DNA from: Synechococcus sp. ROS8604
GTDB taxonomy: Bacteria > Cyanobacteriota > Cyanobacteriia > PCC-6307 > Cyanobiaceae
Reading direction: 5' to 3'
Assembly: GCF_014279655.1 (NCBI RefSeq)
Contig: NZ_CP047946.1
Coordinates: 434,001-498,000, forward strand
Length of the DNA stretch: 64,000 nucleotides
Shown: in pieces, positions 18,742 through 20,434 of the stretch
Layout of the letters: every line of letters starts with the position of its first letter
How positions within the stretch are numbered: the stretch's first letter is position 1
The notes under the pieces: generated by a model
Database searches by the model: none
What the model saw: only the letters and a program-made list of their open reading frames with translations
What the model was told of the DNA's origin: nothing
Made by a program: the position numbers and the translations under genes

Positions 18742-19425
18742 TTAACAGGGGTTGTAATCGCTGAAAGACAAATAATCCTGCCGCCAGTTTCGATCTGTTT
18801 GTTTTTTAGTCAAACGGCTTGTGCTGACACTCCAGCCTGGATGTTTTTGGCTTCCTGATGAAGGCTGACGTTCCAGCACAACGGATTGAACAATGGTTTG
18901 GATGGGTTTAGACCCAACTCCAATTAATTCACTATGAATGGAGTGATTCCTGAGAGTCAGTTTCAGTAGTAAGGGTTGTGCAAAAGGATTACGGATGACG
19001 AGGTCTTTGGTTGTGTAAGCGATCGCCGCATCTTCACCGAGCGCATAAAAGCGCTCTTCTCCGTAGGCATCGATGCTGTGATTGTGACGCTCAAGGATTG
19101 TGCAGCCACTGTGCAGAAACAGCTGATAGAGGTTGGTTGCGATCAGGCAAAGGCCCCCTCCGGCATCGGAGAGAACCTGCCCTTGCTTAAACACTGGTCC
19201 TGACCGATAGCCGTTTGCTTCTGATGGTTCGCCTAGGTGCTGAGAAAGGCTGAAGGCCTCCCCTGATTTCAAAAAGCGATTGTTAATTGCCTTGATGGCT
19301 AGGTGGAGATTGTGAAGGCGGTTGGTGCAGGTGATCTCATCCCCACGCGTTGGAATCGGCGTTGAGATTGTCTGCCAGCACGATGCTTTTAGTACGTGAT
19401 TAAACAGTGAACAAGACCCTGAAAA
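18742..19425 (-). pseudogene. VanW-family protein, 5'-truncated
   Basis: The frame encodes a clear VanW-like domain: TCTNRLHNLHLAIKAINNRF, SGEAFSLSQHLGEP, SDAGGGLCLIATNLYQLFLH and ILERHNHS. VanW-type proteins of unknown role usually have a further N-terminal 80-100 residues. Here the frame is open back to a TGA at 19426-19428 but contains no ATG, GTG or TTG before the TTG at 19270-19272, which would remove the conserved start of the domain. The Nif11-type peptide gene ends only about 20 bases further upstream, so no room remains for the missing region. I read it as a degraded remnant; translation from CTG 19405-19407 cannot be excluded. Confidence 0.65.
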
Positions 19426-19444
19426 TCAGTGACTTAACTTTAAG

Positions 19445-19705
19445 TTATCCTAGCGTGGTTGTCCCAGTTCTTCGCCCATGCGGGTCGAATAAACTGCCAG
19501 CACCAGTCACATTTCCTACCGCCTCGTCTGAAAGCTCGGTAATCACGGATTGAGCTTTGTTGATGTCATCAGCAGAAATCATAAATCCCGCCTCTTTGGC
19601 AATGGCAATAACAGCATTGTCATCTGCAGCTGCTTTGTGCTTCTTCTGAAGACTGCTGTCGCCTTTGACCTTTTCGAGGAACGCTTTGAGTTGCTCTTCT
19701 GACAT
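19445..19705 (-). CDS. Nif11-like leader peptide family protein without core cysteines
   Basis: The 86-residue protein starts MSEEQLKAFLEKVKGDSSLQ, has the central AIAKEAGFMISADDI and ends its leader-like part with ELSDEAVGNVTGAG, the pattern of Nif11-derived leader (N11P) peptides used for prochlorosins in marine cyanobacteria. Prochlorosin cores carry Cys, Ser and Thr for lanthionine rings; here the 16-residue tail (SLFDPHGRRTGTTTLG) has Ser and Thr but no Cys. No lanthionine synthetase or peptidase/exporter gene is in the window. It could be a substrate for an enzyme elsewhere or a Nif11 protein with another role. Confidence 0.8.
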   Translation of the reverse strand: MSEEQLKAFLEKVKGDSSLQKKHKAAADDNAVIAIAKEAGFMISADDINKAQSVITELSDEAVGNVTGAGSLFDPHGRRTGTTTLG

Positions 19706-19879
19706 CAGGGAAAGAATGTAGATAATTCAATTGTCTCTTATTCAAGCAGCATTGTCAGACTTAGGTGAAGAAAGGTTGTCCCTCCAGCCACGCCTATAGC
19801 CACCCTGCGCATCGCCAAGGATTTCCCAGCTCTACCCAAATCCTTCTTCTGCCGTCCTGCAGAAGTTGTTGGACCTGAG

Positions 19880-20434
19880 TTGATTGGCTGTTTATTAGTG
19901 AAACGCCAACTTTCTGGGGAGTTGTTGTGGGGCGTGATTGTGGAGACGGAGGCGTATTCCCAGGATGAACCTGCCTGTCACGGCTACCGCCGCCGCTCAC
20001 CGCAAAACGAAACGCTGTTTGGAGAGCCTGGGCGGTTTTATGTGTATGTGAGCTATGGCATCCACCACTGCGTGAATGTGGTGACGGGTCGCGCTGAATG
20101 GGCCAATGGGGTATTGCTTCGCGCTGTTGCCATGCCTGGCGAGCCTGAGCGGATAGCGGCAGGGCCTGGTTTGCTGTCTCGGCACTTTCAAATCAGCCGC
20201 CTTCATGACAACAGCTCCGCCTGTGGCGAGAATGAACTGTGGTTGGCCTCCAGGCCCTCCGTTCTCAACAGCCTTGAGCTTGTGACCACCACGCGGATCG
20301 GAATCACTCAGGCCCAGGATTTGCCCTGGCGTTGGTACTTGCGGGCCTCCCGCAGCGTGAGCCGGCGTGCCAAAGGTGATCGGATGCCTGCTATCAGTCA
20401 GGCCTTCATTCCAACCCTGGAGTGCAAGCGATGA
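19880..20434 (+). CDS. DNA-3-methyladenine glycosylase (AAG/MPG family)
   Basis: The conserved regions are [20 protein letters not shown] (the catalytic-Glu region of human AAG), [20 protein letters not shown] and [18 protein letters not shown]. The enzyme removes alkylated purines from DNA in base-excision repair. The TTG at 19880 gives 184 residues, but the homologous N-terminus continues upstream in frame ([20 protein letters not shown], from about 19832), with no ATG, GTG or TTG back to a TGA at 19766-19768. A CTG at 19805 could be the true start, or an upstream frameshift may exist. The stop overlaps the pyrB ATG (ATGA). Confidence 0.85.

Follow-up and report, generated by a model that had tools for sequence, protein, structure and literature searches.

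A probable relict prochlorosin-type precursor with a cysteine-free tail in Synechococcus sp. ROS8604

Prochlorosin-type precursors carry a Nif11 leader. In LanM-positive relatives of the strain described here, this leader should bring in a ProcM-type LanM, whose role is to dehydrate Ser and Thr residues and link them to Cys; cleavage behind the double glycine and secretion of the ring peptide would then fall to a C39 ABC exporter. According to PMC10783134, the large precursor families of marine picocyanobacteria are the prochlorosins and synechococsins (ProcA/SyncA), and their leaders end in the motif D/E-E-L-E-x-x-x-G-G.

A 2010 paper (PMC2887384) states that N11P genes (prochlorosin-type Nif11 precursors) occur in species that have neither LanM nor TOMM enzymes, and a 2023 survey (PMC10783134) places LanM in 9 of 12 procA/syncA strains. 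Cys-free substrates of the prochlorosin synthetase are also in print (PMC11251773). Neither orphan precursors nor Cys-free cores are new to the literature; a literature search, with Cubillos-Ruiz 2017 outside its scope, found no publication tracing Cys loss at one site.

Here, we describe an N11P gene in a 64,000-nucleotide stretch of the Synechococcus sp. ROS8604 genome (the window; positions below are those of the window unless a genome is named), a genome of 2,876,904 bases (2.88 Mb) in a single contig. The gene shares with ProcA/SyncA (TIGR03798 N11P) the leader sequence, the size and a location away from any LanM, but it lacks the core Cys and reads GAG for GG and AVG for ELE, in a genome where neither LanM nor a C39 exporter of the usual size was found. 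Like the orphan N11P/procA genes of LanM-less genomes noted in PMC2887384 and PMC10783134, it is a precursor without a modifying enzyme, and it differs in being compared, at one site, with Cys-bearing alleles of LanM-positive relatives. As in the Cys-free prochlorosin cores of LanM-positive genomes (PMC11251773), its core is unable to form lanthionines, whereas those genomes keep LanM and the 15 such leaders sampled here end in GG. We consider it likely that the gene is a relict, a decaying orphan precursor left behind after the loss of ProcM and the exporter.

The precursor gene, its junction and its tail

The ORF (19445..19705, minus strand) starts with ATG and encodes 86 residues, MSEEQLKAFLEKVKGDSSLQKKHKAAADDNAVIAIAKEAGFMISADDINKAQSVITELSDEAVGNVTGAG followed by SLFDPHGRRTGTTTLG. 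Its leader, residues 1-70 up to GAG (19496..19705, minus strand), covers positions 1-65 of the 66 in a profile built from 160 full leaders out of LanM-positive genomes; the ORF scored 99.8 bits against this profile, which matched nothing else at E <= 1 when all six frames of the window were scanned. Pfam Nif11 matches residues 1-47 (E 9.9e-17, 61.4 bits), and NCBIfam TIGR03798 (leader_Nif11) matches residues 1-68 (E 1.4e-23) at 82.9 bits against a cut-off of 32.3, which places the protein in that family.

The window protein was matched at E <= 1e-4 in 22 of the 31 genomes of the genus, with counts from one per genome to 101 in G028 and at least 150 in G008, for which the scored candidates numbered 150 out of 249. 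The ten best matches outside ROS8604 share 65-74% identity over the leader, all in LanM-carrying genomes. This identity bears out the original prediction that the leader matches prochlorosin precursors, and each element it had read from the letters, namely a Nif11-type leader, a GNVTGAG junction and a Cys-free tail of 16 residues, was confirmed. Phage records gave no match to the protein at E <= 1, and the only matches among solved structures were a Nif11 entry, 9zn4, at a weak E of 0.026, and two unrelated entries that were weaker still.

The end of the leader departs from the family motif, reading DEAVGNVTGAG, with both ELE and GG altered. Residues 62-64 (19514..19522, minus strand; profile columns 59-61) are AVG at the family's ELE position ahead of the double glycine, columns in which the 160 LanM-positive leaders hold E in 151, L in 156 and E in 155, and GAG takes the place of GG, so the label "GG-like" given to this junction was generous. 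Four leader residues are rare (below 1%) among those 160, the H in column 23 and the A, V and G in columns 59-61. Their number itself is not unusual, as at least four rare residues also occur in 20 of the 160; their clustering on ELE stands out, though it was spotted post hoc.

The 16-residue tail, SLFDPHGRRTGTTTLG (19448..19495, minus strand, by translation), holds five Ser/Thr and no Cys, that is, it lacks the Cys that (methyl)lanthionine rings require alongside Ser/Thr, and no homologue of it was found among the 31 genomes. Since the 141 bases of tail and spacer DNA, besides matching themselves, gave only matches of at most 28 bases in those genomes (best E 0.015), a tail borrowed from another precursor was ruled out. 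A frameshift masking a Cys core was likewise rejected, given that the other two frames contain no Cys from the junction through the tail DNA; one alternative frame has CDWCW just ahead of the junction, reachable only by a shift inside the leader. By our own uncomputed estimate, most random 16-residue tails are Cys-free, so that the absence of Cys is informative only against relatives.

The VanW to MPG-pyrB site and its mobility

In G029, G010 and G005, the stretch from VanW to MPG-pyrB also holds a precursor in the same orientation; inserted genes put it about 2 kb from VanW in G010 and about 13 kb away in G005. The cores at this site are AVSEFCTAQDCVSVQRC in G010 and EKTNFYCSNWNHTCAWNC in G005, both LanM-positive and each core with three Cys, and RAFSWGVGNSGL in G029, which has no LanM and whose core is Cys-free as in the window gene. 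The window gene is 86% identical to that of G010 over 332 bases of 5′ flank and leader. In the leader, 127 of 159 bases are identical over 53 codons, and the upstream flank (19706..19880, minus strand), which runs into the 5′ end of MPG, agrees at 157 of 174 aligned bases. This flank contains one weak sigma-70-like match (19758-19730).

Past the junction, no alignment of the window gene to its site relatives was seen. The stop codon and a short spacer up to the truncated VanW gene occupy 19378..19447 (minus strand, by sequence inspection), and no terminator-like site was found behind the gene, with no counterpart of the hairpin with a T-run seen by eye after the G010 and G005 precursor genes. 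The adjoining VanW-domain gene (18742..19377, minus strand) shows homology only from about 19370 on, lacks the N-terminal part found in its G029, G010, G005 and G030 counterparts and has no ATG, GTG or TTG before 19272, making it probably a 5′-truncated pseudogene. One deletion or rearrangement between the precursor end and VanW would explain the lost 3′ part, the lost hairpin and the missing VanW 5′ end.

The MPG (methylpurine-DNA glycosylase) reading frame (19808..20434, plus strand) has a 5′ end that is an apparent hotspot in relatives. In each of the four site genomes, the distance between the precursor start and an MPG 5′ end, either the real one or a relic, is about 80-90 bases. G010 and G029 are 94-97% identical around the precursor segment and about 74% identical at the precursor, which rules out strict vertical orthology of the four site precursors and indicates that alleles have been exchanged there. 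Relics of the MPG 5′ end lie ahead of the real MPG (L114:8755-17242, L112:4828-5003), as four segments, perhaps three copies, in G005, of which the freshest is 97.6% identical and adjoins a phage-integrase-family gene (L114:13366-14394), and as one, at 78%, in G029. The start of MPG may thus be an integration hotspot that exchanges precursor cassettes. IS200-like (Y1) transposase genes also adjoin the precursor in G010 (L113:5660-6445) and G005 (L114:15604-16389).

Enzymes, exporters and precursors across the genus

The absence of a modification enzyme near the gene, as originally predicted, extends genome-wide for LANC_like, LanM, YcaO and SPASM, the families that our maturase search covered. 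The same PF05147 search that detected no LANC_like domain in ROS8604 picked up the domain in 12 of the 31 genus members, where the frames measure 1063-1138 aa. The LanM protein of G010 retrieved nothing in ROS8604 at E <= 10, so that no LanM remnant was found, with the PF05147 run over the 31 genomes serving as control for the cyclase domain in place of a positive control of the query's own. The suggested search for LanM-type enzymes in the genome therefore returned none, and genome searches for YcaO and SPASM came back empty.

Regarding export, a C39 domain (PF03412) in an exporter-size frame is present in 12 of 12 LanM-positive genomes, mostly at 104-130 bits, and in some LanM-negative ones (G002, G011 and G029 among them). 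In ROS8604, the PF03412 search found no exporter of the usual size and gave two weak matches only, at 36.3 and 25.3 bits (cut-off 22), in frames of 1021 and 996 aa. Neither of these two parts of the prochlorosin system, the ProcM-type LanM and the C39-peptidase ABC exporter, was thus found in this genome. Meanwhile, the LanM-less G029 has an export cluster (L223:12023-19534, on its contig C3) in which two ABC genes, one of them a C39-ABC, lie with genes read as HlyD (HlyD_3 at 21.5 bits, slightly below cut-off) and TolC (by eye); in G010 (L192), LanM directly adjoins the matching ABC gene, a place where G029 has, by eye, an alanine dehydrogenase-like neighbour.

Further N11P genes, which the original prediction had proposed to look for, exist in ROS8604 as three damaged copies and one intact tail-less leader. 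The copy at 833006 has a leader without ATG (ATT instead) that runs into a Cys-free tail, NRIRALNIISLDK; 833497 is a weak leader fragment (29.6 bits) after it; and 2421036 lacks the first part of its leader and has a TGA inside. Among these and the window gene, four prochlorosin-type copies, only the last keeps an intact frame. The gene at 1030115 (minus strand, L118) has an intact prochlorosin-like leader (76.8 bits) that ends in ELEGGD with no tail, so not all such leaders of this genome are broken. The remaining Nif11 matches listed for ROS8604, at 25-41 bits, lack a GG junction plus core, as in 982148, which ends in GEYN.

Two observations stand apart. A tail-less ELEGGD leader is intact in two LanM-less genomes, at 1030115 in ROS8604 and at G001:C1:1456416 (L167), each read from its sequence as a leader without product. 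Besides, a 205-aa frame of ROS8604 (608446-608973, L117) contains two Nif11 domains and no GG junction.

Tail composition differs with LanM status. Cys-bearing tails account for 149 of 164 precursors sampled in 12 LanM-positive genomes, taken from hand-picked regions around window-protein matches out of at least 469, and for two of nine in LanM-negative genomes, the window gene counted, one in G011 and one in G003. The difference (Fisher p ~6e-6) is uncorrected for kinship, and the effective sample is five LanM-negative genomes with precursors, since precursors from one genome are kin to each other and LanM may have been lost in a common ancestor. For the LanM-negative set, we took all 18 matches of at least 51.8 bits among 180 TIGR03798 matches and a few weaker ones; a filter of 60 bits and a full leader retained eight distinct ORFs, to which the window gene was added, with G002 364729 dropped as a repeat of 365002 and the ELEGGD leaders of ROS8604 (1030115) and G001 (1456416), tail-less and short of the profile end, left out of the tail count. 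The 15 Cys-free tails of LanM-positive genomes all follow leaders terminating in GG and, as such prochlorosins are also in print, missing Cys alone proves nothing.

The LanM-less genomes do not behave uniformly. In G011, the leaders are conserved and one core holds two Cys, so LanM absence is not always followed by decay; the same genome has tandem Nif11 genes (G011:C1:1866665 and 1867023, L171) whose Cys-free tails, rich in Ala and Gly, are nearly identical (TATALAAAVVGAGAGV...). In G029, two diverged Nif11 leaders (L112:4494-4736 on C8, and G029:C3:61489-61686, L164) carry nearly the same Cys-free core, RAFSWGVGNSGL and RAYGNGVGNSGL, with 17 identical bases running near the 3′ end.

The terminal-branch N/(N+S) of the window leader is 0.65, a value reached by 11 of 111 LanM-positive leaders (median 0.49, n=111) and lying below the value of about 0.78 given by site counts without constraint. 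It is 0.69 for the second ROS8604 copy, 0.66 and 0.71 in G029, 0.66 in G002, and 0.31 and 0.33 for two well-conserved leaders of the LanM-negative G011. These fractions give modest support to relaxed constraint, not neutrality. The pairwise dN/dS of the window leader over codons 1-53, 0.16-0.23, partly reflects older selection, yet it is unlike that of a free-running pseudogene.

A probable decaying orphan and its rivals

For a relict, the record of the window gene is mixed, an intact frame and an N/(N+S) of 0.65 standing beside an unalignable 3′ end and an adjoining VanW gene without its 5′ end. In the decay that we favour, the gene retains its upstream flank and the greater part of its leader, in a genome where no LanM and no C39 exporter of usual size were found. 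It lacks the Cys core, the 3′ hairpin and the ELE-GG motif, and a deletion or rearrangement in which the VanW 5′ end also went is the probable cause. If translated, it would most likely yield an unprocessed 86-aa cytosolic peptide with no lanthipeptide function. Counting against this are the intact ORF, the leader dN/dS of 0.16-0.23, the 15 of 164 Cys-free tails in LanM-positive genomes, and the two similar Cys-free cores of G029, which look maintained. The original prediction had offered a decayed precursor, a substrate for another enzyme or a Nif11 protein with an unrelated role, of which the evidence favours the first and the other two less so; as a whole it is partly supported, its prochlorosin match standing and its junction overstated.

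The best-placed rival, itself unlikely, is that the gene still works as a precursor and yields a secreted peptide that is Cys-free and unmodified; the leader would be cut at G-A/G and another ABC transporter would carry out the export, leaving SLFDPHGRRTGTTTLG or GSLFDPHGRRTGTTTLG outside the cell. The intact ORF and the upstream flank shared with G010 at 157 of 174 bases agree with this, as does the LanM-less G029, which keeps its C39-ABC, second ABC and putative HlyD and TolC genes and places nearly one core, RAFSWGVGNSGL or RAYGNGVGNSGL, behind two differing leaders. However, ROS8604 has no C39 exporter of the usual size, the ELE ahead of the cleavage site is altered, the tail is unlike any other by DNA, and three other copies in this genome are damaged.

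We hold as doubtful a broader version in which, after ProcM loss, some marine Synechococcus lineages use precursors as carriers of unmodified Cys-free peptides, the window gene being a divergent member. Such carriers would continue to depend on the Nif11 leader and, in genomes that retain it, such as G029, on the C39 exporter. The best case for a maintained Cys-free class is G029, with its C39-ABC cluster and one core behind two diverged leaders, and ROS8604 has no such exporter.

It is quite improbable that ROS8604 modifies the product with some other enzyme encoded elsewhere in the genome. The tail does hold five Ser/Thr, and procA/syncA genes elsewhere are scattered across the genome, away from the enzyme (PMC10783134), but LANC_like, LanM, YcaO and SPASM have no match in ROS8604. 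A Nif11 protein with an unrelated cytosolic role is very unlikely. Several Nif11 genes of this genome lack a GG junction and core, 982148 among them, 1030115 ends in ELEGGD, and a core-less Nif11 type is reported in PMC10783134; against this, the window gene scores 99.8 bits on the prochlorosin-type profile, above core-less types, and its site houses precursors in three relatives. Homologues without a GG-like junction and never near precursor peptides had been named as the observation that would overturn the original prediction, and the close homologues carry GG and core-like tails, which also makes an unrelated role unlikely. Least probable of all is a recently arrived stray precursor, recombined in at the MPG hotspot and never with an enzyme here: the 5′ flank and leader are 86% identical to G010 over 332 bases against 73-75% in larger surrounding blocks, and the site in relatives has MPG 5′-end relics and a phage-integrase-family gene, but the three other damaged copies suggest an older family in the lineage, and the functional verdict is the same as for a relict.

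Read as a decaying orphan, the window gene suggests, at one site, how a combinatorial lanthipeptide precursor fares without its sole enzyme: it loses the Cys core and the motif for cleavage, and the leader lingers. Dead precursors may be tallied as natural products when genomes are mined by leader profile. The hotspot at the MPG site, in turn, offers one concrete route by which precursor cassettes may travel from strain to strain.
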